Program-made: the position numbers and the translations under genes
The notes under the pieces: generated by a model
Databases searched by the model: none
Seen by the model: only the letters and a program-made list of their open reading frames with translations
Told to the model about the DNA's origin: nothing
In this document: positions 8,682 through 58,444 of the stretch, piece by piece
How the letters are laid out: each line of letters opens with the position of its first letter
How positions within the stretch are numbered: the stretch's first letter is position 1
Assembly: GCA_021796215.1 (NCBI GenBank)
Contig: JAJYOK010000006.1
Coordinates: forward strand, 64,201 to 128,200
Direction: 5' to 3'
Length of the DNA stretch: 64,000 bases
Origin: Bacteroidota bacterium
Lineage (GTDB): Bacteria > Bacteroidota > Ignavibacteria > UBA10030 > UBA8401

Positions 8682-9410
8682 TTATTGAACGATTACTAAA
8701 TGTTTTTCAACGTTTGAAAACTCTTCGCTTCCTTTAAATGTAAGCGGAAGAGAATGTATGAAAAGTTTTGGAAAAAATCTTTGCGCGACGGCAAACTCTT
8801 CAGAAAGATCTCCTCCTTTGAATGCGATAAGCGAAGGGTTTTTCAAAACCAATCTGTCTGTCCGGGTGACGGCTGAATCAAAATCAGCGGCTGCTTTTTC
8901 TTGTTTGTTAATTCGCAAAAACGGATATCCATATTTAATTAAGTCTTTAAGGTTTGAGACTGCTCTAACAATAACGGCGCTAAAAGATTTTTGCATTGCC
9001 GCCTCTTTTTGAACATCTTCTGCCCTTCCACAGACTGCGGAGGCATTTGGAAGATGCAGCTCGGAAATCATTGCCGATACCGCACTGATCTTTTTTTGTA
9101 TTGAATCGAGCAGAACAAATTCAATATCAGGGAGCATAATGCTTAACGGAATTCCCGGCAATCCTCCACCTGTTCCCAAATCTAAAATACGCGCGTTGAA
9201 ACTAAAGTCAATTTTAAAGAGAACCGCCAACGACATAAAGATGTGTGTCTTCCAGAGATTTTCCTGATTTTTTCTTGAGACAAGATTAATCTTTTCGTTC
9301 CAATTAAGAATCTGCTTTTTATATGCTTGAAGCCGCTGGAGTTGAATGGCTGTTATTGTGACGCCATTTTTCTTCAGTATTGTATGCAGCCAAAGCTCTT
9401 CGTCGTTCAA
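8682..9410 (-). CDS. rsmG: 16S rRNA m7G527 methyltransferase
   Basis: 242 residues. RsmG (GidB) methylates N7 of G527 in 16S rRNA using SAM. Motif I is ILDLGTGGGLPGIPLSI, followed by VLLDSIQKKISAV and RAVSNLKDLIKYG. The start appears to be TTG at 9410, because AAGGG lies at good spacing before it and the sequence MNDEELWLHTILKKNG fits the family N-terminus. It is the usual partner of mnmG (gidA-gidB). A parS-like site fills much of the gap to mnmG. Confidence 0.93.
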   Translation of the reverse strand: MNDEELWLHTILKKNGVTITAIQLQRLQAYKKQILNWNEKINLVSRKNQENLWKTHIFMSLAVLFKIDFSFNARILDLGTGGGLPGIPLSIMLPDIEFVLLDSIQKKISAVSAMISELHLPNASAVCGRAEDVQKEAAMQKSFSAVIVRAVSNLKDLIKYGYPFLRINKQEKAAADFDSAVTRTDRLVLKNPSLIAFKGGDLSEEFAVAQRFFPKLFIHSLPLTFKGSEEFSNVEKHLVIVQ

Positions 9411-9426
9411 TTGTTTCCCTTGGAGC

Positions 9427-9440
9427 GTTTCACGTGGAAC
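9427..9440. promoter_or_regulatory. parS: parS-like ParB binding site 1
   Basis: GTTTCACGTGGAAC matches the ParB/Spo0J consensus TGTTTCACGTGAAACA at all inner positions except one; the B. subtilis consensus also allows GTTCCACGTG. It lies in the 34-base gap between mnmG and rsmG. A second identical 14-mer is at 11323-11336. parS sites cluster around the replication origin and often sit by gidA-gidB, but no parA or parB is in this window. Confidence 0.75.
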
Positions 9441-9444
9441 AAAA

Positions 9445-11319
9445 TTACTTTCTGAGATGAATGGTAATGACGGAAATGTCTGAGTGTGTTACTCCCGAGA
9501 TACGAGATGCCTGCCCTATCGAACGCGGCCGAATGCGTTGCAGCCTGTCTTTCCCTTCATTGCTCAGCGACTTGATTGCAGTGAAATCAAAATCTTCAGG
9601 GATCTCAAATTCTTCAAATTTTGAAAAACGCACAATCTGTTCCCGCTCACGCCTGATGTAGCCTTCATATTTAATATCTATTTCAATTTGTTCTGCTACC
9701 AGGGCGTTCTTTAAAAAAGGTTTCTTTTTATCGTCAATCAGTGCAGCTAAATCCGAGAATGTAATGTTTGGTCTCTTAAGAATATTTGACATTCGCTCAT
9801 GTTCGGCAATCGTTGGTAATCCCTTTCGCTCGAGAAGTTGATTAACCGCTTTGGGAGAAATGAAAGTCGAATTTAAATATTCAATGCCAGCTTTGATTTC
9901 TTTTTCCTTAGCAGCAAGTTTTGAAATTGTCTCATTATTGATCAGTCCGAGCTGAAAGCCTTTTTTCATAAGTCTTCTGTCGGCGTTATCTTGACGAAGA
10001 ATTAACCGATGCTCTGCACGAGAAGTGAACATTCGGTACGGTTCGTCGGTAGATTTATTGATGAGGTCGTCAATCATAACGCCAATGTATGCTTCATCGC
10101 GTCGGAGTATAAACGGATCGAGATTCTTCACTTTCAAAGCGGCATTGATTCCTGCAACGAGTCCCTGCCCTGCTGCTTCTTCATAACCGGATGTCCCGTT
10201 TATTTGTCCGGCGAAAAAGAGTCCGGAAACAATTTTAGTCTCAAGTGTATGTTTGAGCTGATGCGGCGGAAAAAAATCATACTCGACAGCGTAACCAGCT
10301 CGCAGCATTTTCACATTTTCCAAGCCTGCGATTGATTGCAATCCTTCATACTGAATTTCTTCAGGCAAGCTTGTAGAGAATCCGTTTACATAAACAACGT
10401 TGGTGTTGTAACCTTCGGGCTCAAGAAAAATTTGATGGCGGTCTCGTTCGGCAAAGCGATGAATTTTATCTTCAATTGAAGGACAATAGCGCGGACCAAT
10501 TCCCTTGATTCTTCCCGTGAACATAGGCGAGCGGTCGAAACCTTTTTCCAAAATCTTATGCGTTCGTTTGTTCGTGTACGTCAAGTACATCAGAATCAGC
10601 CGGTTAGTAATTTTTTCATTTTGAAATGAAAATGGCGCCGGCGGATTGTCGCTTTCTTGAATTTCAACAGAAGAGAAATCTATACTACCAATATCAATTC
10701 GAGGTGGTGTCCCGGTTTTTAATCTTCCGGAGACAAATCCTAATTCTCGAAGAGACTCTGTTACACCGCGAGCAGGAGGCTCTCCAAATCTGCCGCCAGC
10801 CCTGTTTTTTAGACCGGTATGCATAAGCCCGTTCAAAAAAGTCCCCGCGCACAAAACCAGACTTTGGCAAAAAATTTCGTGGCTTGAAAACGTTCGGATG
10901 CCCTTTATGATAGCATTTTCCACTAAAACTTCCGCAACGGAATCTTCAAGCACATCAATACCATCTTGTTCGAAAATTCTTCTTTGAGCTTCCCTGGAAT
11001 ACCATTCGCGATCGTTCTGTGAACGAGGCGACCAGACGGCAGGGCCTTTTGATTTATTCAGCATCTTGAATTGAATGCCCGTTGTATCGGCAATCTTCCC
11101 CATCTCGCCGCCAAGAGCATCAATTTCTCGAACAATGTGTCCTTTTGCGGTTCCGCCAATGGCTGGGTTACACGACATTCTTCCAATGGAAGCAGCACTC
11201 AAAGAAATCAAAAGCGTGGAGCAGCCCATTCGCGCAGACGCAAGCGAAGCTTCTATTCCCGCATGCCCTCCGCCAATTACTATGACATCGTAGGATAATT
11301 TTGGAGGATTAACAACCAT
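9445..11319 (-). CDS. mnmG: tRNA U34 carboxymethylaminomethyl synthesis enzyme, FAD subunit
   Basis: 624 residues, typical for MnmG (GidA), which with MnmE modifies wobble U34 of certain tRNAs. The FAD-binding Rossmann loop is [28 protein letters not shown] carries one of the conserved cysteines, and [11 protein letters not shown] and [17 protein letters not shown] are family signatures. The C-terminal helical part ends with [18 protein letters not shown]. mnmE is immediately upstream in the same orientation with only 17 bases between them. That gap is almost entirely the second parS-like site. There is no obvious ribosome site, so coupling to mnmE translation is possible. Confidence 0.97.
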
Positions 11320-47016: not shown

Positions 47017-47104
47017 CCTATTTTCCGTCAATCACTTCCCGGATGCGCTTCACTATTGCTTCAGGTTCGTACGGCTTCTGCACAAAGTCTTTCGCGCCGC
47101 CTTT
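47017..47104. repeat. 88-bp direct repeat, left copy (displaced end of the hybrid kinase gene)
   Basis: Matches 55858-55945 at 87 of 88 positions in the same orientation; the single difference is A/G at 47030/55871. The copy encodes, on the minus strand, the last 28 codons and stop of the kinase (ending PEAIVKRIREVIDGK) but no more. It marks the left edge of the AT-rich island. This is the pattern left when an element integrates in the 3' end of a gene and restores it. Confidence 0.85.
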
Positions 47105-47292
47105 AGACGCCCCACTTTCTTGCGTTTGACAATTCACAGACAGGATTTTCTACCACTGGGAATTTTATCTGCGAATACTGTGCAATTAAGCAATTTTTTT
47201 GGCTCGAAACTTGTAAGCCGTGATAGCGGCAAAAGGTGGGACATTATTGCCATTTCAAATAGGATTACGGGCGTAATTCTTCGGAGGTAAAA

Positions 47293-47346
47293 ATGAGCAG
47301 TAAAAGCAAGCATTCTTATTTTAGCATTGGGGGGTGGCATGCATGA
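47293..47346 (+). CDS. 17-residue peptide with a strong ribosome site
   Basis: MSSKSKHSYFSIGGWHA. GGAGG lies five bases before the ATG, one of the best ribosome sites in the window. The frame overlaps the start of the AraC-type gene (ATG 47339) by eight bases. It could be a translation-coupling leader or a tiny signalling peptide; the Gly-Gly near the end is reminiscent of processed leaders, but that is weak. It could also be the first codons of a truncated gene. Confidence 0.35.
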   Translation: MSSKSKHSYFSIGGWHA

Positions 47347-47746
47347 GGAAAAAATAATCGCCATCGTAAGAAACAGATTTGCTGATTATCAATTTACTGT
47401 TGAGAAATTAGCAGAGGAGGCGGGAATAGGGGTGTCACACCTGAGAGAAAAAGTTCACCTTTATTATAAAATGTGTCCGCAGGAACTTATTGAAACAGTT
47501 CGGTTGGAAAATGCCCTGCGGCTTCTCTGCAAAAATCATGCACAAAGCCTTTATGACGTTATTCCGCAATGCGGCTATCGCTACGAGAGAACATTTCTTG
47601 ATGCGTTTGAGAAACGGTTGGGTGCAACGCCGACTGTATGCCGAAACGCTCTTTGTGCAAACGAAGCTAGGTTGAAAAACTGGATAGAGAAATTGTGGAT
47701 GAATGGACTAAACGGTTTGCCCACCGAAGAGCATTTTGGTTCGTAG
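47339..47746 (+). CDS. Stand-alone AraC-type helix-turn-helix protein
   Basis: 135 residues. The whole protein is about one AraC DNA-binding domain: FTVEKLAEEAGIGVSHLREK forms the first helix-turn-helix, and LYDVIPQCGYRYERTFLDAF with EKRLGATPTVCRN the second. There is no ligand-binding or receiver domain. It lies at the left end of the island, upstream of the radical SAM gene and in the same direction, and is the only regulator there. ATG at 47339 overlaps the upstream 17-codon frame. Confidence 0.75.
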   Translation: MHEEKIIAIVRNRFADYQFTVEKLAEEAGIGVSHLREKVHLYYKMCPQELIETVRLENALRLLCKNHAQSLYDVIPQCGYRYERTFLDAFEKRLGATPTVCRNALCANEARLKNWIEKLWMNGLNGLPTEEHFGS

Positions 47747-47840
47747 GTAGACGAAAACAACAGTTGATTTCCACCGTTGAATTTCGCAGGCGATATTCTC
47801 ACTTGCAAATAGCAGCAACTTGAATTACCATTGTTGAGCG

Positions 47841-47868
47841 TTGATCAAAAAATTACAATAGGTATAAT
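47841..47868 (+). promoter_or_regulatory. Sigma70-type promoter of the radical SAM / precursor operon
   Basis: TTGATC (47841-47846), 16 bases, perfect TATAAT (47863-47868). It lies 46 bases before the radical SAM start and is the clearest promoter inside the island. Confidence 0.7.
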
Positions 47869-47914
47869 GGAAAAACGCAGATTACACAGATTACATTGTA
47901 GGCTTGGTTGATAA

Positions 47915-49344
47915 ATGCGGACATCAAGTTATACTATTTTTGCTCAGATTCCAAGGTCGGAAGAGCAAATACTTGTTCATGGTTATACAGGGGCAATTGA
48001 TATTGTTTCACAAAGGCTCATAAGTAATTTGAAGGAAGAGAATTTTGGCGCATTAACTCCGAAAGAAATAGAGGTGTTAAGTAAGAGAGGTTACATTACA
48101 ACAAAAAGCAAGGAGGAAGAATATAAACGCGTTGAGTTGTTAGCGCGGCTATTTCATAAGAAAGCATCTCGATTTCATTTGTTCATGTTTCTTGTTTCCT
48201 ATGATTGTAATTTTCGCTGTCCCTATTGTTTTGAGTCAAGTATATCAGCGGCAGGAGAAAATTGGAGTGGTGAAACATTTACAAAGATATTAGTTGATGC
48301 AGCATATGAGGTGGTTGACAAAATAAATTTCACAAGTCCATGGAAAAGTCGAATTATTCTTTACGGTGGTGAACCTCTGCTTGTGAAGAACTCAAATATT
48401 GTTCACTACATTGTTGATAGTGGGTTGAAGCGCGGCTATAAATTTGGAGCGATCACCAATGGCTATGAAGTGGATTCTTATCAAGATATTATCGGTAAGG
48501 ACGCGGTCAATTTTTTGCAAATTAGTCTTGACGGCGGTTCTATAGTTCATAATAATCGTAGGAGACATTATACAGGAGAGGGCACATTTTATAAAATTTT
48601 TGAAAATATTTCCCTTGCATTAGAGTTGGGCGCTTTTGTTAATGTCCGTATCAATATTGATGAAAAAAACATCTCACAACTTTTTGATTTAGTAAAATTT
48701 ATTTTTTCGAACAAATTCAATGAACGATCAAACTTTCAGTGCTATATTTCTGTAGTTAGAAATTACAACGGAAATGTTTCATCCGAAAATATATCTGTAT
48801 GTAGCAACGGGCTTTGTGAAATCTTTCCGACGGTAAGCAAGCGCAAAGTTTTGAAATTCTTAGAAAGTTTTTTTCAAATACATCCAGAATTTTCATTTAT
48901 TCAGGGGCCAGACTACTGGCTAAAAAGCGAGATTAAGCATGTTATCCAAAGCCGAGGAGCACTCCAATTTCGCGGATCATTTTGCGGGGTCACAGGCGGA
49001 AACCAGATTTTCGATCCGCGTGGTGATATATATACCTGCTGGGGAGATGTTGGGAAGCGATCAGTTAGAATTGGGAGATTTTGGCCAGCATTGAGCTATG
49101 TTAAGGAACAATTGCAAGAATGGAAAGAAAGAACAATAACAAATCTGAGTATTTGTAGTAAGTGCAAATATGCTCTTTTCTGCGGCGGGGGTGCGGCGCA
49201 CTGGCAAAAGCAGAGTATAACACACTTAAGCACTCATTTTGTGATGAATATCCATTAATGTTTGTGAACAGCGTGCGCAAGGCGTATTTGGAATGTGTTT
49301 TACAGAAAGAAATCAGCATGTCTAACTATTCCTTTACAAAATAA
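47915..49344 (+). CDS. Radical SAM/SPASM peptide-modifying enzyme, frameshifted near the end
   Basis: An N-terminal peptide-binding-like region (PRSEEQILVHGYTGAIDIVS) leads into the radical SAM core: C98, C102 and C105 in YDCNFRCPYC bind the 4Fe-4S/SAM cluster, and GGEP follows. A SPASM region carries further Cys: FCGVTGG, YTCWGDVG, CSKCKYALFCGGG. The frame then runs into HWQKQ and stops at 49258. The +1 frame continues as CGALAKAEYNTLKHSF to 49344, giving the expected SPASM ending CGGGC. One G missing from the GGGGG at 49187-49191 explains this; restored length is 476 residues. It may be a true mutation, phase variation or a sequencing error. It probably modifies the peptide encoded next. 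Confidence 0.82.
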
Positions 49345-49442
49345 TATGTCAACCACCTAATTGATTATGATATTGGAAATGGTTACAAACAACATCAATG
49401 CGCTGGCATCATTTCATATTAAAGAAAGGAGGTGAGAAAATA

Positions 49443-49649
49443 ATGGACAAGGAAAAATCCTTGAAGATAAACGAAGAAAAACCATCAATAAAATCTCTCA
49501 ACGATCTTCTCTATGATAATGATTTATCAATTGAGGAATTAGAAGAGAGATTAGAATTAGATCCGTGGTTCTGTGGTGTTTATTGCAACGAAAACTCAGG
49601 GTGTAACCCCATAGGATGTAGCCCAATAGGATGTACCCAGGTAGCATAA
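49443..49649 (+). CDS. Cys-rich RiPP precursor-like peptide
   Basis: 68 residues from ATG at 49443, with an excellent AAAGGAGGTGA upstream. The acidic leader (about 1-40) has the amphipathic LSIEELEERLELDPW often seen in radical SAM/SPASM substrates. The core has five Cys at 44, 48, 54, 59 and 64 (C-x3-C-x5-C-x4-C-x4-C), with a tandem PIGC repeat: CNPIGCSPIGC. It begins 98 bases after the radical SAM gene. Thioether or other Cys-based crosslinks are plausible, but the chemistry is unknown. The leader/core cut site is not defined. Confidence 0.78.
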   Translation: MDKEKSLKINEEKPSIKSLNDLLYDNDLSIEELEERLELDPWFCGVYCNENSGCNPIGCSPIGCTQVA

Positions 49650-49710
49650 TCAGGTTTGCCTTCCCTTTGTTTTCTACAGCAATAATAATATCAAGCATGG
49701 CATTTACCCA

Positions 49711-49805
49711 AGAGCCTCTCTCCTTTTTTGACAGCACTTTTCAAGAGTTATTTTTTCATAGAGCTATATAGCTTAATATAAGAACAGTTATGAAAGAGAG
49801 GCTCT
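49711..49805 (+). promoter_or_regulatory. Long-range inverted repeat after the precursor gene
   Basis: AGAGCCTCTCT (49711-49721) pairs perfectly with AGAGAGGCTCT (49795-49805). A perfect palindrome AGCTATATAGCT (49762-49773) lies inside. It ends about 35 bases before the TPR gene. A partial terminator or RNA-processing site here would let the peptide be made in excess over the downstream proteins. No T-run of note follows the stem. Confidence 0.45.
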
Positions 49806-49839
49806 AATATTTTCATGGGTGATGAGAGGATTTGAAAAA

Positions 49840-51018
49840 ATGAAGCGGTTTTATTTCATCATAGTGATGTGGCTTGCTACTTTTTTTTCTTCAGGAGAAT
49901 TGGCGGGGCGACAAGTTGCTTCTGTAGCTGTTCCTAATGTTTACGTGGATAGTATCGAAACTGCAAAACGAGTGCTTTTTTTAACTTATAGCGAGCAATA
50001 TAATGAAGCTTTGGCTCTCGTTGAGAGAATGGCAGACGAGAATCCAAGTTCGATACAATGGAAGTATTTTCATGCAATAATATTGTGGAGGAAGCTACGA
50101 GTTCAAAGTTGGGCAACTGGGTATCACGATGAGGTGCTTGTAAATAGAATCGGCAATGAACTTCTTACTCTTAAAAAATTAATTGATGAGGTACCGGATA
50201 GTCTTCGTGCAAAGCCTTATTATTTATTTTATGCAGGTGCAATTTACGGGTATCTAGGTATGTATTATGCAGGCATAAGAGAAGAGAATTTAAAAGCAAT
50301 TAAGGTCGGGGGAGATGGGCTTAACTATTACAAAAAAATACTACAAATAGATACTACCTGTTATGACGCATATTACAGCTTTGGAGTTTATCATTTCTAC
50401 GCGAGTGATGCCCCATGGTATATCAAACCATTGCTTTGGGTATTCGGTGTGTCAGGTTCTGAAGAAAAAGCAGATACTTATTTAACTCTGGCTGCTAAGA
50501 AGAGCACTTTGGCTAAATATGAGGCTATGGAAATGTTAGCAGAGCTATATGTTAGAAGGAGATTGATTGATTCTGCTGTGATTGTATATCGGAAGCTAAT
50601 ACAAAAATTTCCCAGTGCTTATTATTATTACTTAAATCTAGGATGGGTGTATAAAAAGTTCCAGAGAATTGATGAAATGGCAAACGTTTATCAAGAAGGT
50701 GTTAATTATTCGAGAAAAACAGAAACAATAGAAGGAGATAAAGAATGTTTAAGCAACATATATCTCTTGCTAGGTTCTTATTATTCAAGGGTCAATAGAG
50801 TTAGAAAAGCGATTACTCTTTATCAGGATGGATTAGCAAGGAACCTAGGACACTTTGATTGGTGGTGTTATCGCATTGCATTGTGCTATGAAAAGCTCGG
50901 CGACAAAACACAAGCTATTTATTATTATAAGTTGATCCGCGGAGGTGAACTAACGACAGAAGAGATACAAAGGGTACAATCTCGTTTAAATGAGCTGGCA
51001 AAAGATTCCCAACAATAA
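49840..51018 (+). CDS. Exported TPR protein of the island
   Basis: 392 residues from ATG at 49840, chosen because it gives a clean signal peptide (MKRFYFIIVMWLATFFSSG); GTG at 49819 is the upstream alternative. The rest is TPR-like helical repeats, for example SEQYNEALALVERMADENPS, LIDSAVIVYRKLIQKFPSAY and VRKAITLYQDGLARNLGHFD. The family is unknown to me. Exported TPR proteins often act as scaffolds, so it might hold or transport the modified peptide in the periplasm; that is inference. Confidence 0.65.
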   Translation: MKRFYFIIVMWLATFFSSGELAGRQVASVAVPNVYVDSIETAKRVLFLTYSEQYNEALALVERMADENPSSIQWKYFHAIILWRKLRVQSWATGYHDEVLVNRIGNELLTLKKLIDEVPDSLRAKPYYLFYAGAIYGYLGMYYAGIREENLKAIKVGGDGLNYYKKILQIDTTCYDAYYSFGVYHFYASDAPWYIKPLLWVFGVSGSEEKADTYLTLAAKKSTLAKYEAMEMLAELYVRRRLIDSAVIVYRKLIQKFPSAYYYYLNLGWVYKKFQRIDEMANVYQEGVNYSRKTETIEGDKECLSNIYLLLGSYYSRVNRVRKAITLYQDGLARNLGHFDWWCYRIALCYEKLGDKTQAIYYYKLIRGGELTTEEIQRVQSRLNELAKDSQQ

Positions 51019-51054
51019 TTTTTTCGGAAATGTTTAAACTCTTGAGGGAATAGG

Positions 51055-53106
51055 ATGCTTTCTTTTGACGAAATGAAAGAAAAATGTTTTCGTAGTTTTG
51101 AAGAGTCGATTCATGATATTAAGAAAACGGACATGGCGCCTAGCGATGTCCAAATGGGCGAGATTCAGAAATTAAAAGGTAACTTCTATGTAGCATATCC
51201 ATTTCTTTTCGAGTCACATTATACAAACATTGATAAAGAAGCTCTCGAGAAGTTGGCACTAGCAGGAAATATCTATTTCACTTATTTGCTAACTTTTGAT
51301 GAACTTTTTGACGGAGATGCAAAATCATCGGCCATTGTGGTTGCACATCTGCTTCATGAACATGCTATTAATTTATTATATGAAATGTTCCCAGCGCAAT
51401 CACCTTTTTGGAGCCTTTTTAAAAAGTACGAGAATGAATTTCTTTGTTCTGTTACCAGAGAATACAATGCTATTAAAAAAATAATGGAGGGAAAGTATAT
51501 TGATGATAACGATCTAATAATGATGGTGAGAAACAGAAGCTCTTTTGCAAAGTGCGCTACGGCGGGACTGTGGGTGCTGTCAGGTTGCAAGGGAGAGTCA
51601 AATGCATTCGACAAAACTCAAGAGTTTTTTCATGTTGGGCTCCAGATGCTAGACGATTTGAAAGATTGGAAAGATGATTACAGAAAAAAACGGCCATCAT
51701 ATCTTCTTTCTTTAGCCCTTTCTGATGAACGCATTCTGGAAGCATTGAATAGAGCGCAATCAGACGATTATGGAGTTTTAGGTAGAGGAATTTATTATTC
51801 TGGTATTGCTGAAAATCTTCTGCAAACGGCCAAGAACTTCTTCATAGATGCGCTTAAATCTTGTGAGCCTTATAATGTTCCACAATGGAAAATGTTAGTG
51901 GAGAACCATATTAAGGAAATTACCAATGCATGTAATGATCTAAGGGAAACTAAACTTTGGTTGCTAGAAAAACGGGAAAAAGTAAGAATAATTCATTCTG
52001 GGAAAGCTAGATCTTCTCCAAACATGGTAGGTTTAATTGCAAATACACCATACAGACAAACACTTCTGCGAGGGCTCTCCTTTCTACAAATAGAACAGAA
52101 ACACGACTATCCAGAGATGACTCATAGGATGGCATTGCCAAGATTTGATAAAAATAATTCCGGCAACAGTTTCGTAGTATGTAGCAACTTATTCCAAAGA
52201 ACAGTTGTGCTTGATATTTTCATTGATCTCAAAAGGCTGTTAAACGGTGCTGTCGACAAGAAAATTATTTCAGCAGAGTTATCTATCTTAGAAACTTCCA
52301 AAGCTAGATTGGTTCGCGGCGGATGGAGTTACTTTCCAAATTATCCATGGTTACCACCTGACGCTGATGACTTAGCACAAATGATACAAATATTTGTCAA
52401 AACAGCACACCCGCGCATTCACGAGCTCGTAGAGGAACCAATTAAACTTTTAATTGATTCAAACCGTTTTCCCGATGGAACTTTTCGCACGTGGATTCTT
52501 GATCCAAACGATAACAGCGAAATTCAACAAGTGCTTAAAAAAACTGTGGAAACTCATTGGGGCGAACGTTACGGTAAAGATATAGAAGTCACAACAAACA
52601 TGTTGTACGCTTTATTGGTTTATAATAAGGAGAGATATCATACTATCATAAGTAAAGGTATAGCAGCGGTGTTAGCGGCTCAAGCTCCAAATGGTTTATG
52701 GCACAGTGGTTGGTATTGGGGTCCTTTTTATGGAACTTACGTTGCCACTCGATTACTTTCGTCCTCAAGATTTAAAACCGAAAGTTTGCAAATTACAAAA
52801 GACTATTTGATAAATAATCAGCATAACGATGGAGGGTGGGGGTACCGACAAAGTGATCCACTTAACACAGCTCTGTCAATTTTGACTCTCAAGAATATTG
52901 AAGATGCCAACCATGTAATTAGTCATGAAATTTATGAGCGAGCAATTTCTTATTTATCCAGTGAGCAAAAGGTTGCAGGTTCGTGGAGGCAAGTTCCATT
53001 TATAAAGATGTTAATTGGCAGGAAAGAAATAACATATCAAAGTGAAACGATTACAACAGCATATGTTCTTAAAGCACTGGCAAGTATAATGTTTTTTATG
53101 AAATAA
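51055..53106 (+). CDS. Two-domain terpenoid enzyme: class I prenyl/terpene synthase fused to class II cyclase
   Basis: 683 residues. The N-terminal half is all-helical with two Asp-rich motifs of class I isoprenoid enzymes: DELFDGD (82-88) and QMLDDLKDWKDD (197-208), the latter like the QxxDDxxD second motif of prenyl diphosphate synthases. The C-terminal half has the class II acid motif DADD (436-439) and three squalene-cyclase QW repeats: QAPNGLW (543-549), QHNDGGW (589-595) and QKVAGSW (638-644). It may build a prenyl diphosphate and protonate-cyclise it. No signal peptide. GAGGG precedes the ATG. Product unknown. Confidence 0.75.
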   Translation: MLSFDEMKEKCFRSFEESIHDIKKTDMAPSDVQMGEIQKLKGNFYVAYPFLFESHYTNIDKEALEKLALAGNIYFTYLLTFDELFDGDAKSSAIVVAHLLHEHAINLLYEMFPAQSPFWSLFKKYENEFLCSVTREYNAIKKIMEGKYIDDNDLIMMVRNRSSFAKCATAGLWVLSGCKGESNAFDKTQEFFHVGLQMLDDLKDWKDDYRKKRPSYLLSLALSDERILEALNRAQSDDYGVLGRGIYYSGIAENLLQTAKNFFIDALKSCEPYNVPQWKMLVENHIKEITNACNDLRETKLWLLEKREKVRIIHSGKARSSPNMVGLIANTPYRQTLLRGLSFLQIEQKHDYPEMTHRMALPRFDKNNSGNSFVVCSNLFQRTVVLDIFIDLKRLLNGAVDKKIISAELSILETSKARLVRGGWSYFPNYPWLPPDADDLAQMIQIFVKTAHPRIHELVEEPIKLLIDSNRFPDGTFRTWILDPNDNSEIQQVLKKTVETHWGERYGKDIEVTTNMLYALLVYNKERYHTIISKGIAAVLAAQAPNGLWHSGWYWGPFYGTYVATRLLSSSRFKTESLQITKDYLINNQHNDGGWGYRQSDPLNTALSILTLKNIEDANHVISHEIYERAISYLSSEQKVAGSWRQVPFIKMLIGRKEITYQSETITTAYVLKALASIMFFMK

Positions 53107-53111
53107 AATTT

Positions 53112-54428
53112 ATGGCAAAGTTACACAATCATGAAAACAAACGTGTAAAACTTAATAATGATATGTTTCCAGACCGCCTCGTGCCTAATTTATTGAATGA
53201 GATTGAAATTGTTCCAATGGATACCGCCTTTCACCCTTCGAGATATTTGGTCAAAGCTGGAGAAGGGAAAAATTTAGAAATATCTGAGACCTACTATCAT
53301 CTTATAGGTTTAATAGATGGTAAACGTTCCGTTGAAGAAATTTCCATTGAACTAAAAGAAAAATTCAGCATAGATATCCCCCCCCATGAAATTAAAAGAA
53401 TAATAGAAACCTCATTGGTTTCAAGCGGTATAGCGAAATCCGATCTCAACGGAAGAAAGACCACCCATTCAAGATCATACTTGAGCTACAAACATCCGTT
53501 ACTATTACAAAGATCTTTGCTTCCATTTACAAAGATGCTACAAATCCTTTTTGAAAAGCACCTATTTACTTTCCTTGTAAGCGTAGCCCTTGTGTTTGAG
53601 ATACTCTTCTATTTCGTATTTCGGGATCCCTTGATATCAATAATAAAGATTTCAGGAAACGACTTGATTATTAGTTATATAGTTTTCTTTCTATCTTCAC
53701 TGTTTCATGAACTTGGACACTTGTCGGCCTGCCAACGTTATGGCGCCTTATACAAGGAGATGGGAATCGGTATCTATTTTTATTTCCCTGTATTTTACTC
53801 TGATGTCACAGATGCATGGAAATTAAAGCGGAAACAGCGTGCGGTAGTAGACTTTGGAGGTGTTTACTTTCAACTTTTATTACTTCCCTTTTTGCAGGTG
53901 CTTCATGTTATAACAGGCAGCGCCGCATTTATATTTGTCATTTATTTTTTGAATCTAAACATCGCAGCTACACTAAATCCCTTTTTGAGATTTGATGGAT
54001 ATTGGCTTTTGTCTGATTTGCTGGGGGTACCTAACCTTAGAAAGAGATCGAAGGAAATGGTTACTTATTGGAGTGCTAGTATATTTCGAAAGAGAGCTAA
54101 AAAGCCATATTTTATGTCAAAACTTCAGGAACGAACACTTTATTATCTTTTCACATATACAATTGTCTGTAATATATTTTTTATTTTTTTTGCTATAAGA
54201 TTGCTTGATCAATTCACACTTGCTATGTTTTCGTATCACGCGTTGATTAATGATGTTGCGGTATCCTATAGAGAAGGGGTCGGAGCGTTTTTCTCTTCTA
54301 TTACTAAATTCTTTTTTGTGAATTTCATAATATTTTCGGTAGGTCTAATGATTTCGCGTTGGTTGTGGGGGGTAGCGAATCGAATCATAACAGTCGCCAA
54401 GAGAATGCGAATGGTAAATTACTCGTGA
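53112..54428 (+). CDS. PqqD-like domain fused to M50 membrane metalloprotease
   Basis: 438 residues. An N-terminal PqqD/RRE-like winged helix (about 50-110: YYHLIGLIDGKRSVEEISIE) is the fold that binds RiPP leader peptides. A site-2-protease domain follows, with the zinc motif HELGH (199-203) in a membrane helix and the third ligand in NPFLRFDG (289-296); six or more hydrophobic segments are seen. B. subtilis YydH in the epipeptide cluster is a comparable M50 protein. It could cleave the leader or release the modified peptide at the membrane. It begins six bases after the terpenoid gene. Confidence 0.8.
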   Translation: MAKLHNHENKRVKLNNDMFPDRLVPNLLNEIEIVPMDTAFHPSRYLVKAGEGKNLEISETYYHLIGLIDGKRSVEEISIELKEKFSIDIPPHEIKRIIETSLVSSGIAKSDLNGRKTTHSRSYLSYKHPLLLQRSLLPFTKMLQILFEKHLFTFLVSVALVFEILFYFVFRDPLISIIKISGNDLIISYIVFFLSSLFHELGHLSACQRYGALYKEMGIGIYFYFPVFYSDVTDAWKLKRKQRAVVDFGGVYFQLLLLPFLQVLHVITGSAAFIFVIYFLNLNIAATLNPFLRFDGYWLLSDLLGVPNLRKRSKEMVTYWSASIFRKRAKKPYFMSKLQERTLYYLFTYTIVCNIFFIFFAIRLLDQFTLAMFSYHALINDVAVSYREGVGAFFSSITKFFFVNFIIFSVGLMISRWLWGVANRIITVAKRMRMVNYS

Positions 54429-54438
54429 TAGTAATCTC

Positions 54439-55230
54439 ATGAAAAAGATGAAACGGATAATTTTTCTAATTAAAGAGCGTGTGGTGTATGCTGTTATCTT
54501 TTTTTCATTGTCTTTTACATTTTTAGTTCTTGGAGCACGGTTCATATCGAGATCTGCTATAACCGAAGGGCGTTTAAAAGGCGAAAAATTTTTTATTGTG
54601 CTGAACAACATTAATGAAAACGAAAGAGAAATAGTCGAGACCTGCAAGGTTAGCGGGGTAAACCCGCGCATTTTGGGGGCAGCTATCTACTCCGAACGTG
54701 CTTTGAACTACTTGCCTGTTTTTGAAAACATCTTTTCGTTTGCATTTGGCCAAAGTCTTGGCTTTTCTCAAGTAAATATGAATGCTCTGGCGTGGGCACT
54801 CAAAATGCTTTGGCTTCCAACTCAAGATGATAGCATACGATACATTTTGAAGCATGAATCCGAATTTAGCCGGCTCAGAAGATATTTTAGCAAATATCAA
54901 AGGTATAAATTATGGCAATTGAAATTAGAGCTGTGGCGTAATCAAAAGTTTAACATCGCTTGCTCTGCACTTGTATTAAAACTCACCATGATTCGTTATG
55001 CAACAAGTGAAAATGGATTTGATGTATCAAACAATCCAGCTATAGCTTCCACATTATACCATATCAAGTTTCCGCAAAGAATAACTGGTAATTCGGATGA
55101 ATGGGGCAGGCTTTCGGAGAAAATTTTCTTTGATAAACATTTCATGCCAACGACAACATATATGATTTCTGAAGCAGGCACTTCCTCAAGTATATGGGCC
55201 CATAAAAATGAAATGGGGAAAATTCAATAG
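54439..55230 (+). CDS. Membrane-anchored lysozyme/transglycosylase-like protein
   Basis: 263 residues. One N-terminal membrane helix (VVYAVIFFSLSFTFLVLGA), then an outside domain. NPRILGAAIYSERALNY and FGQSLGFSQVNMNALAW resemble the catalytic-Glu and GxxQ segments of SLT-type lytic transglycosylases. The match is by pattern only. It starts ten bases after the M50 gene. Together with the NlpC/P60 remnant that overlaps its end, it suggests a cell-wall step, perhaps passage or immunity for the peptide. Confidence 0.5.
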   Translation: MKKMKRIIFLIKERVVYAVIFFSLSFTFLVLGARFISRSAITEGRLKGEKFFIVLNNINENEREIVETCKVSGVNPRILGAAIYSERALNYLPVFENIFSFAFGQSLGFSQVNMNALAWALKMLWLPTQDDSIRYILKHESEFSRLRRYFSKYQRYKLWQLKLELWRNQKFNIACSALVLKLTMIRYATSENGFDVSNNPAIASTLYHIKFPQRITGNSDEWGRLSEKIFFDKHFMPTTTYMISEAGTSSSIWAHKNEMGKIQ

Positions 55231-55816
55231 GTTAATAGAGAAATATATCTGGTTAGAGCAATCCTCTGTAGAATTTTCCTGTGAATCAGTTAGCCCAAGT
55301 AAGTGGATTGAAATCTTTCTTTGAATATTAATTCTCCTGCCAACTGGATTTTCAGGAGATAAACTCTCAGTAATTAAAAGATGTACTTTAAGTAATCAAG
55401 TTACCTTTTGTGCGCATGATTTTGCAGTTTCAAAAGTCGGTTTGGAATATTTCTGGGGAGGGAACGGTCCAGACTGTTTTGATTGTTCTGGGCTTATCTG
55501 TTGGGCGTACAGGGAAGTAGATTCATCAATTCAGTTTGAAACCCGAATTGGATTATCGCCATGTGCAACGATGCAAGATATCTATGCCTATAACGTTCAG
55601 CTAATCAGTCGGTCTCGGGTAAAATCTGGAGATATAGAGTTTTTATAACTTCGGATTCAAGCAAGATCTCACATGGGGGGCTTTTTGATTGGGTCCGACA
55701 GATTTAACTATGTCAATGCATCTTCATACTATGGCAAAGTATTGATTGACAGTTTTTCAGTATCGGGTTCGATGACGGGTCTGTGGCTTGTGGGGTTCGG
55801 ACGACTGTTGCGTTGA
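55208..55816 (+). pseudogene. NlpC/P60 (C40) endopeptidase, interrupted by two stop codons
   Basis: One continuous frame carries all the landmarks of a C40 peptidase: EYFWGGNGPDCFDCSGLICW with the catalytic Cys, VKSGDIEF, then SHMGGFLIGSDRF with the catalytic His, and VGFGRLLR at the end. It is broken by TGA at 55322-55324 and TAA at 55646-55648. No frameshift is needed. The N-terminal part before the first stop is poorly defined and overlaps the transglycosylase-like gene. Probably non-functional. Confidence 0.6.
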
Positions 55817-55857
55817 GCTATGAATATTCAACTGGCAGTTAGATAAATTTTTCACTA

Positions 55858-55945
55858 CCTATTTTCCGTCGATCACTTCCCGGATGCGCTTCACTATTGC
55901 TTCAGGTTCGTACGGCTTCTGCACAAAGTCTTTCGCGCCGCCTTT
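55858..55945. repeat. 88-bp direct repeat, right copy (3' end of hybrid kinase gene)
   Basis: Right partner of 47017-47104, one mismatch. It contains the last codons and stop of the intact kinase gene (minus strand) and defines the right edge of the island. Confidence 0.85.
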
Positions 55946-58444
55946 GATAATATCCATCTTTAATACCGGATCGAGATAGCCGCTTGCGAAAATCATCTTG
56001 ACCTTCGGATTAATCTGGTGCATCATTTGAAACGCTTCCCAGCCGCCGATCTTTGGCAATCCCATATCGCACAACACAATCGCAACATCATCTTTGTGTG
56101 TTCTGTATGTTTCCACTGCTTCGGCGCCGTCAGCGGCTTCCAAGACGCGATAGCCTTTTTCCTCAAGCGAGCATTTTACCAGCTCGCGGAGAATTTCTTC
56201 ATCTTCCACAAGCAGAATAACCTCGTTGCCGGTTTTTGTTTGCTCTTCTTCTTTTGTCATTGTTTTGTCCTCTTCCTTGAATCCCGGAGGAACTGGGAAA
56301 TAGAGATAGAATGTTGTGCCACGCGCGATTTCACTTTCCACATCAATAAATCCGTTATGGCTTTTCACTACGCCGAACACTACCGCAAGCCCCAAGCCGG
56401 TACCTCGCCCTCGTTCTTTTGTAGTGAAGAACGGTTCGAAAATTCTTGCCCGTGTTGCCGCATCTATGCCGGTGCCGCTGTCGGTAACGCTGATGCAGGC
56501 ATACGGAATGTTATTGGCTTCCGAAAATTTATTTTTCATGAACTTTGCATTAACTAAATACGTGCGTATGGTGACTGTGCCGCCGTTCGGCATTGCATCG
56601 CGTGCATTCACGCAAAGATTAAGCAGCGCTTGTTGAATTTGTCCCGCATCGCCGACAATAGATGGAAGCTGTTTATCGAGATCAAATGAGAACGTGACAG
56701 TTTTCGGAAATGTTTCTGCCAGCATATTCAACAGTTCTTCTGCAACATCATTGATCTTCACCGATTCGAGGAGAATATCAGTCTTACGTGCGAAGGTAAG
56801 AATTTGCCGGACAAGGTCAGCGCCGCGTTGTGTTGCTTTGCGAATCGCTTCGTAACCCGCTGCAAGTTTGTGCTGCTCGACCTTGCCGCGTTCCAGCCTC
56901 GAAATGTATGCAAGAATGATTGCAAGAATGTTATTGAAGTCGTGCGCAATTCCTCCCGCGAGCGTTCCGATACTCTCCATTTTTTGTGCTTGGCGGAGAG
57001 TTTCCTCTAACCGTTTGCGGTCGGTAATGTCGGTAGAAAATCCGCAGACAGCGTACGCGGCGCCGTTCGAGTCGAAAAGCCGAAATTTATTTGAGAGATA
57101 CGTGTGAACACCGTCGCTCTGCCGATATATTTCCTCACGCTCTACGGGTCCGCCCGCTTGCATGACTTTGTGATCGCTTTCTGTGAACATCTCCGCCAGT
57201 TCTTTTGGAAATACATCATAATCGGTTTTGCCGACGAGATTTTCACGCTTCACGTTGAAGACCGATTCGAAGCGGCGGTTCACAAGCAGAAAACGTCCTT
57301 GCAGGTCTTTTACATAAATCATTGCCGTTGACGTATCGAGAATCGCTTGCAGTCGTTGTTCGGTTTCACCGATGCGGCTGATCTTTTCTTTCAACGAAAC
57401 ACTCATCTCTTCAAATTTTTCCGCAAGAAATTGCATCTCGCCCTGTGTTTGCACGGCGATGCGGTAGTCATAATTTCCGCGGCTGATTTCGCCAGTGCCC
57501 TTTACCAGCGCAGCAATTGGTTTGCTGATTCCATTCGAAATCACGAAACCGATAGCGCCAGTAATGAGCAGAACAATCACCGAGAACAATGCCAGCGTAC
57601 TCATGACCGGCGCAAGCGATGCGCGCACCTCTTTGCCAATCGGTTTTGAAAGTAAATATGAAACACGTGGATCGTTTGGGCTGTCGCTTTGGTTGATCCG
57701 GCAAAACACCGCAACGTACAAATCTTCCGGCTGTTGAATCGTGAAAACGTTTGCCTTTGTTCCTGACGCTTGAGAAGAAATGTGATTCGTTCCAGGGCGT
57801 CGGAGCCATGCGCTGAAATTTCCCTGTTCAGCTCCATTGAATGTGGAAAGCACCGGAAGCGAATCAACAGCAAGAACAACTTCGCTGTTCGTCATTGATT
57901 TCAGAAATTCTACATCGCCGGGTTTCACGCGAAAGCCGATAGTAAGTGTGCCGACCACGTCGTTGGCAATCATGATCGGAGAAGAAGCGCCGTGATAGAT
58001 GTTCCCTTCAACGCTCCACACGTCTGCTTGCGCGTTGCGATTCAATGCCTGGCGGATGGATTCAAATTCCGGCAGCGGCGAAGAAAGCGGAGTGCCGTTC
58101 ACCAAAGAGACAAGCGGTGCACCCTTACCGTTCGTAAGAATGAACAAACCACTGAGAATATTTGCATTGAGTTCGCGTGAAAGTTGAAGCGCCGTATTTT
58201 TATCACCTAATTCTGAAACCGCTTTAAGGCGCGGCGACTCTGCAATAATCTGGCACGACTTCACGTCCTGGCTGGCACGGAGCGAGGTAATTTCCTGAAC
58301 TGTCGAATAATTTCCGCGCAAATCATTCTCAAAACGTGCTTGAATTTGTACACGCAGCCAGTAGTTCACAATAATGAACGTGACAACGAGAAGCCCGAGC
58401 ACAACGCCAAAGATCGAGAGGAATATTTTTGTACGGAATTTCAT
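55859..58444 (-). CDS. Hybrid sensor histidine kinase with PAS and receiver domains
   Basis: 861 residues. TM1 (about 8-30), a periplasmic sensor region of about 250 residues with cache-like features, TM2 (about 283-310), HAMP (SKPIAALVKGTGEISRGNYD), PAS (QAILDTSTAMIYVKD), HisKA with GTLAGGIAHDFNN, an ATPase domain (NLCVNARDAMPNGG, DSGTGID, GRGTGLGL) and a C-terminal receiver with its Asp in VLCDMGLPK. The hybrid layout without a DNA-binding output means the signal passes on elsewhere. It lies 17 bases after the porin in a cupredoxin-porin-kinase operon. Its 3' end is the apparent insertion site of the island. Confidence 0.93.
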   Translation of the reverse strand: MKFRTKIFLSIFGVVLGLLVVTFIIVNYWLRVQIQARFENDLRGNYSTVQEITSLRASQDVKSCQIIAESPRLKAVSELGDKNTALQLSRELNANILSGLFILTNGKGAPLVSLVNGTPLSSPLPEFESIRQALNRNAQADVWSVEGNIYHGASSPIMIANDVVGTLTIGFRVKPGDVEFLKSMTNSEVVLAVDSLPVLSTFNGAEQGNFSAWLRRPGTNHISSQASGTKANVFTIQQPEDLYVAVFCRINQSDSPNDPRVSYLLSKPIGKEVRASLAPVMSTLALFSVIVLLITGAIGFVISNGISKPIAALVKGTGEISRGNYDYRIAVQTQGEMQFLAEKFEEMSVSLKEKISRIGETEQRLQAILDTSTAMIYVKDLQGRFLLVNRRFESVFNVKRENLVGKTDYDVFPKELAEMFTESDHKVMQAGGPVEREEIYRQSDGVHTYLSNKFRLFDSNGAAYAVCGFSTDITDRKRLEETLRQAQKMESIGTLAGGIAHDFNNILAIILAYISRLERGKVEQHKLAAGYEAIRKATQRGADLVRQILTFARKTDILLESVKINDVAEELLNMLAETFPKTVTFSFDLDKQLPSIVGDAGQIQQALLNLCVNARDAMPNGGTVTIRTYLVNAKFMKNKFSEANNIPYACISVTDSGTGIDAATRARIFEPFFTTKERGRGTGLGLAVVFGVVKSHNGFIDVESEIARGTTFYLYFPVPPGFKEEDKTMTKEEEQTKTGNEVILLVEDEEILRELVKCSLEEKGYRVLEAADGAEAVETYRTHKDDVAIVLCDMGLPKIGGWEAFQMMHQINPKVKMIFASGYLDPVLKMDIIKGGAKDFVQKPYEPEAIVKRIREVIDGK

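Follow-up and report, generated by a model that had tools for sequence, protein, structure and literature searches.

A candidate gene cluster for a terpenoid-conjugated, radical SAM-modified peptide on an acquired island in an Ignavibacteria genome

The DNA analysed here, called the window, is a stretch of 64,000 nucleotides from contig JAJYOK010000006.1 of a Bacteroidota bacterium (class Ignavibacteria) with a genome of 3.37 Mb. It contains an 8.84-kb island, located between a resistance-nodulation-division (RND) efflux operon and a hybrid histidine kinase gene, which is considered here as a candidate cluster for a ribosomally synthesized and post-translationally modified peptide (RiPP) carrying a terpenoid. 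The original prediction, made from the sequence alone, described a gene island whose parts run in one direction and lie near each other. All of the central parts are present, on the plus strand and close together (Table 1): a cysteine-rich precursor peptide, a radical S-adenosylmethionine (SAM) enzyme with a SPASM domain, a fused terpenoid enzyme and an intramembrane protease.

Table 1. Features of the island and its edges, in positions of the window
Feature	Position	Strand	Basis or remark
Left copy of 88-bp direct repeat	47017..47104	.	Matches 3' end of histidine kinase gene
AraC-type helix-turn-helix regulator (139 aa)	47327..47746	+	PF12833, E 2e-14
Radical SAM/SPASM peptide maturase	47915..49344	+	PF04055; assembled open reading frame 47915-49258, homologous reading to 49344 in another frame
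Precursor peptide MDKEKSLKINEEKPSIKSLNDLLYDNDLSIEELEERLELDPWFCGVYCNENSGCNPIGCSPIGCTQVA	49443..49649	+	68 aa; leader common to precursors of related clusters; Trp42 codon 49566-49568
Tetratricopeptide repeat (TPR) protein with hydrophobic N-terminal signal (399 aa)	49819..51018	+	TPR families
ChrPC-like bifunctional enzyme (683 aa)	51055..53106	+	PF13243; alignments; structure model, pLDDT 83
N-terminal PqqD-like domain fused to M50 intramembrane metalloprotease	53112..54428	+	HExxH at residues 199-203; PF02163 in 15/17 homologues
263-aa protein	54439..55230	+	Lytic-transglycosylase-like by eye only
NlpC/P60 domain	55405..55817	+	PF00877, E 1.4e-8; reading frame broken at runs of T (three-frame reading)
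Right copy of 88-bp direct repeat	55858..55945	.	Equals 3' end of intact kinase gene 55859-58444 (-)

Core genes of the island

The precursor most likely starts at the ATG at 49443, after AAAGGAGGTGA. Its leader follows the pattern LN..L.D..LSIEELEERLEL, and because this leader recurs in other genomes the gene is not a chance open reading frame; the Cys-rich precursor of the original prediction is thus confirmed. The leader is followed by Trp42 and by Cys44, Cys48, Cys54, Cys59 and Cys64, giving a core with cysteine at every fifth position (GCNPIGCSPIGC). The precursor families of NCBIfam gave no match to the precursors.

The terpenoid enzyme is indeed a fused class I/class II protein, as its structure model and fold comparisons demonstrate. 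Its P domain (approximately residues 1-290) has the fold of trans-isoprenyl diphosphate synthases (trans-IDS), with a first aspartate-rich motif (FARM, D82/D86), a second one (SARM, D200/D201/D204/D208) and Q197. The C domain (approximately residues 328-683) is a monodomain class II cyclase with the DxDD motif D436-A-D438-D439. In the fold comparisons, residues 1-290 of the model matched 4jyx with a Z score of 25.0, while residues 328-682 matched 8pak (Z 32.7) and MstE (6sbd, Z 30.1). The FARM, the SARM, the glutamine three residues before the SARM and the DxDD motif are invariant in six full-length members, including that of the window. In a wider alignment, the glutamine is kept in 24 of 25 relatives, and a second clade of this 25-member set has DxDS in place of DxDD, or has lost the motif. 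The DxDS form is found in fused enzymes of loci L091, L092, L021, L022, L023 and L029 (7885-9858 in the last), and L029 has one fused enzyme of each kind along with two precursors.

According to a 2026 review (PMC13290415), ChrPC acts on a ribosomal peptide: its P domain uses C10-C20 donors to prenylate an internal tryptophan, and its C domain cyclises the prenyl chain. The review describes the glutamine before the SARM as a residue by which trans-IDS-like Trp prenyltransferases recognise Trp. The enzyme in the window has the features of the ChrPC type, namely a trans-IDS-like domain fused to a class II domain, the FARM, SARM, glutamine and DxDD, and an adjoining precursor with an internal Trp. 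An ordinary bifunctional diterpene synthase or a squalene-hopene cyclase was rejected as a full description, given that the class I domain comes first, the C part is monodomain and the neighbours are a precursor and a protease. Two polyprenyl synthases are encoded elsewhere in the same genome, and isopentenyl diphosphate isomerase genes are located in or beside two fused-enzyme clusters, L031 (14728-15231, identified by NCBIfam) and L036 (1328-1825, identified by sequence). These genes are compatible with a supply of prenyl diphosphate.

The M50 part of the predicted PqqD-like/M50 protease is clear. Its PqqD part scores 12.8 bits, under the Pfam cut-off, but has PqqD topology in the structure model. 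Foldseek placed SpoIVFB and PqqD among the top matches to the protease model, each with a probability of 0.96. VIA-align of the M50 model returned mostly helical look-alikes, with the site-2 proteases SpoIVFB first and the M. jannaschii enzyme fifth. A profile comparison of the two PqqD-like domains aligned them in the same register with a probability of 6%, and is not used as evidence.

The predicted radical SAM/SPASM enzyme is present as well, including a CNFRCPYC motif of the CxxxCxxC type, but its reading frame is broken as assembled. Where 7/7 relatives read CGGGC, the window reads CGGG-A and ends early; the remainder of the protein (LAKAEYNTLKHSFCDEYP...) is encoded in another frame after the G run. 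The SPASM cysteines are conserved in the relatives, and the last ones in the window fall after the break. The protein is 36-42% identical to its relatives and is recognisable on both sides of the break. Judged by sequence, the interruptions here and in the NlpC/P60 gene look like single-base homopolymer events, caused by sequencing error or decay. It may be that the island is a decaying remnant in which the radical SAM and NlpC/P60 genes are pseudogenes and whose product is no more than a simpler prenylated peptide; two of the eight island genes have frame breaks, while the flanking genes for proteins of 1051 and 861 aa are intact. Nevertheless, all of the breaks occur at homopolymers, where assembly errors concentrate, and the precursor, TPR, fused enzyme and protease genes are undamaged. 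Decay is regarded as rather unlikely.

Recurrence of the neighbourhood

Loci were collected by scanning 84,980 species genomes along with samples of the phylum and the class, which together gave more than 20. The fixed class sample comprises 391 genomes, the class including metagenome genomes of Ignavibacteriales and Melioribacteraceae. Examples of the neighbourhood are found in three phyla, Ignavibacteriota, Balneolota and Bacteroidota. In most loci the M50 protease adjoins the fused enzyme or is within one or two genes of it, and a short precursor with F.VEELEKR(Y/L)EM or SIEELEERLEL is located just upstream or nearby. The same radical SAM subfamily is found in the window, L014, L015 and L091 (Ignavibacteriota), in L017 and L018 (Balneolota) and in L035 and L038 (Bacteroidota). 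In the remaining fused-enzyme clusters the radical SAM gene is absent or of a different kind. L091 shares the order of the window (radical SAM, precursor, TPR, fused enzyme), and L018 also has an AraC-like gene upstream of its radical SAM gene.

Within the class sample, 8/391 genomes encode the radical SAM subfamily (scores of at least 414 bits, next best 243), and five of these eight are among the ten that encode the P-domain enzyme; the hypergeometric probability is 1.8e-7, and 4.5e-6 with the window excluded. The original prediction had allowed that the pairing of the terpenoid enzyme with radical SAM and precursor genes is chance if it never occurs in other genomes. A chance pairing is rejected, since the pairing recurs across three phyla.

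Several other loci were noted during this survey. In L037 (Chryseobacterium defluvii), four tandem precursors at 8863-9730 share the leader and the Trp, differ in their cores and lie near a fused enzyme and an M50 protease. L019 and L039 have a class II cyclase alone beside a protein of approximately 2,750 aa and two dioxygenase-like genes, and represent a different terpenoid-related cluster of Bacteroidota. On a 3.3-kb contig of Methanosarcina spelaei (L043), a fragment like the class II domain is located by a radical SAM-like open reading frame; the contig is short and may be contamination. A search of plasmids yielded distant homologues only, among them an adjacent fused enzyme and M50 pair in Gemmatirosa near which no leader motif was found.

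Tryptophan and cysteine in the precursors

All 22 precursors beside fused enzymes contain Trp, in 21 of them 2-7 residues past the ELE.R.E leader. Counted by cluster, Trp is present in 18/18 with a fused enzyme versus 1/6 that share the leader but do not encode a fused enzyme (Fisher 1.4e-4); the latter six are L117-L121 and a class I-only cluster of genome G228. The association holds within the radical SAM family alone (Fisher 0.003). A Cys no more than three residues after the Trp occurs in 8/8 precursors beside the radical SAM subfamily versus 2/12 where no radical SAM gene is present (Fisher 7e-4). It is probably this Cys beside the Trp that the radical SAM enzyme cross-links.

Given the Cys-rich core, prenylation might instead take place on cysteine, in a CaaX-like manner, and leave Trp42 unmodified. 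The five core cysteines would offer sites for this, and in G228 (L020) the precursors beside a class I-only enzyme are rich in Cys and contain no Trp. However, six of the flavobacterial-type precursors beside the fused enzyme have no core Cys and all have Trp, and the characterised trans-IDS-like peptide prenyltransferases all target Trp (PMC13290415), which makes Cys prenylation very improbable.

Sister clusters with other lipidation genes

The five other loci of this radical SAM subfamily, L117 (G385:C102), L118 (G473:C103), L119 (G446:C27), L120 (G476:C127) and L121 (G441:C209), keep the radical SAM gene, a same-leader precursor, the TPR gene and the M50 protease, with an LpxL-like acyltransferase replacing the terpenoid enzyme. 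This acyltransferase is of the lipid A type (PF03279, E down to 2e-10, with L117 just below the cut-off). Four of the five acyltransferases have a C-terminal PqqD domain, which in L121 scores 26.4 bits versus a curated cut-off of 23.4 and in L120 is recognised by alignment. The cores of these acyl-type precursors read TCG or TC, and Trp is absent in 4/5. In a tree of the radical SAM proteins, a node with support of 98/98 unites the acyl types with some of the terpenoid types, and the lipidation module has thus changed within one radical SAM lineage.

A further variant is found in G228, where L020 (G228:C40) has the class I-only enzyme, an M50 protease and very Cys-rich precursors without Trp. 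In the same genome, L122 (G228:C56) has a radical SAM gene at a contig end, facing it, and the G228 cluster has probably been split by the assembly.

The natural exchange of acyltransferase and terpenoid enzyme is the strongest argument that the latter acts on the peptide. The original prediction had left two options, a prenylated or terpenoid-conjugated peptide, or a terpenoid produced alongside the peptide for the envelope. In the second, the fused enzyme would release a free terpenoid, the peptide would be modified by the radical SAM enzyme only, and both would act in the envelope without being joined. Both domains do resemble enzymes with small substrates, such as polyprenyl synthases and drimenyl and copalyl diphosphate synthases. 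This option is nonetheless improbable in view of the way in which Trp tracks the enzyme, the conserved glutamine of the SARM and the swap to an acyltransferase, and the review reports published activity of ChrPC on a peptide Trp (PMC13290415). The conjugated peptide is favoured by the tracking of Trp, the residues of Trp prenyltransferases and the recurrence of the neighbourhood.

Accessory genes and island boundaries

The TPR protein has homologues in the same position in L014, L015 and L091, as well as in the acyl-type clusters L117-L121. The wall-acting proteins of the original prediction are only partly borne out: an NlpC/P60 domain exists, in broken frames, whereas the 263-aa protein had no match in the family searches. 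Neither of these two genes was found in the related clusters.

The composition of the island is distinct, with a G+C fraction of 0.374 compared to 0.473 in the remainder of the window; the lowest value of any 8.75-kb stretch of the left flank is 0.439. There is one mismatch between the two 88-nt repeat copies at its edges. Genome G398, from the same genus, lacks the island and has 29 bp between its RND and kinase genes, and the 3' end of the intact kinase gene in this genome is 92% identical to the left repeat copy. The repeat and the empty site together establish that the island is an acquired segment and that it entered at the kinase gene's 3' end. It thus resembles an integrative element in its terminal direct repeats and in the empty site of a relative, and differs in having no recombinase of its own: none is present among the island open reading frames, and the tyrosine recombinases of the genome sit on other contigs. 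The fused terpenoid enzyme was not found in the 21 other genomes of the same family. In G200, also of the same genus, contig C135 begins exactly at the kinase 3' end and C74 stops approximately 200 bases past the RND gene, which hints at repeated receipt of inserts at this spot.

Proposed pathway

On the basis of sequence, structure models and analogy to ChrPC, the island is probably a lipopeptide RiPP cluster in which Trp42 is prenylated and the attached chain cyclised, the cysteines are cross-linked and the leader is cut by the PqqD-M50 protein. The leader would be recognised by PqqD-like parts in both the radical SAM enzyme and the protease, and the Cys-rich core would begin near Trp42. The radical SAM/SPASM enzyme would then cross-link the core through its cysteines, perhaps by thioether or similar bonds. 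As suggested by ChrPC, by the fold and by the active-site residues, the P domain could move a C15-C20 prenyl group from the cellular prenyl diphosphate pool onto Trp42, and the acid of the DxDD motif in the C domain could protonate the chain and fold it into a polycyclic terpenoid on the peptide. Finally, the PqqD-M50 protein may bind the leader and cut it at the membrane, freeing a membrane-active or envelope-directed terpenoid peptide. That the product is an antimicrobial or signalling lipopeptide is a guess.

Several observations weigh against this pathway. The radical SAM protein as assembled is without its last SPASM cysteines and, if the break is not due to faulty sequencing, may have no activity. 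The Trp in L023 is 19 residues past the leader motif, L118 has a Trp and no fused enzyme, and the Trp and Cys counts come from small sets that are not phylogenetically independent. There is also no transporter in the island, and the TPR and wall genes are without an assigned role.

A broader reading, to which we give about an even chance, is that these loci form a modular class of lipidated, radical SAM-cross-linked RiPPs with a shared chassis and exchangeable lipidation modules, the window peptide being cross-linked and carrying a polycyclic terpenoid. The chassis would be the ELE.R.E leader, the dedicated radical SAM subfamily, the TPR protein and the PqqD-M50 protease. As its lipidation module, a cluster would have one of three enzymes: a prenyltransferase-cyclase acting on Trp, a prenyltransferase with a class I part only, or an acyltransferase of the LpxL type that brings a C-terminal PqqD domain of its own. 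The residues of the core would adapt to each. If this is true, radical cross-linking, isoprenoid transfer and terpene cyclisation are joined on one short encoded peptide. From the sister clusters it would seem that either a terpene or a fatty-acyl anchor can meet the same need, and the role of lipidation could be tested by module exchange. The leader motif with Trp, or the leader with a TC core, may also serve as a sequence rule for finding such peptides in genomes of the Bacteroidota group.

Comparison with known systems

The CefB, TIGR04463 and PapB maturases share with the window enzyme a radical SAM and SPASM organisation, an N-terminal leader-binding region and Cys-rich substrates. However, the window protein scores only 92-108 bits with these NCBIfam models (108.4 for CefB, NF038107; 101 for TIGR04463; 92 for PapB) against curated cut-offs of 340-600, that of CefB being 600, and in the loci examined its type is found beside a lipidation enzyme. 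M50 proteases of daptide and epipeptide (YydH/LiaK) clusters are similar in being intramembrane HExxH proteases in a RiPP cluster, but the window protein reaches 117 bits with the daptide model NF041824 against a cut-off of 300, and the island has no NCBIfam or Pfam match to the other daptide enzymes. Membership in the CefB and daptide families was rejected on these scores.

In ComQ/ComX and PalQ/PalX, a trans-IDS-like enzyme likewise acts on a peptide Trp. These systems differ in having no fused class II cyclase, a short linear chain, a different leader and no radical SAM or M50 protein. The closest parallels are the fused prenyltransferase-cyclases ChrPC and NctPC of cyclised-isoprenoid RiPPs (Hubrich et al., Chem 2024, 10:3224-3242), considered here as cited in PMC13290415. 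By description, fold and residues, the window system is like these in its fused architecture, a trans-IDS-like P domain (ChrPC), an MstE-type C domain and an internal Trp, and a Chryseobacterium homologue of the same architecture (L037) is present in our set. Unlike ChrPC and NctPC as described there, the window system also includes genes for a TPR protein and a radical SAM/SPASM enzyme, and the core of its precursor is rich in Cys.

The original prediction knew of no described RiPP class with this set of genes. This no longer stands for cyclised-isoprenoid RiPPs as such, which were published in 2024 according to PMC13290415. In the open-access literature searched, to which Hubrich et al. 2024 does not belong, no description was found of a RiPP with both a radical SAM enzyme and a terpene cyclase, nor was any found there of lipid A-type acyltransferases in RiPP clusters. 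The type of reaction has been known since 2024, whereas its pairing with a radical SAM enzyme and the apparent exchange for an acyltransferase look new.

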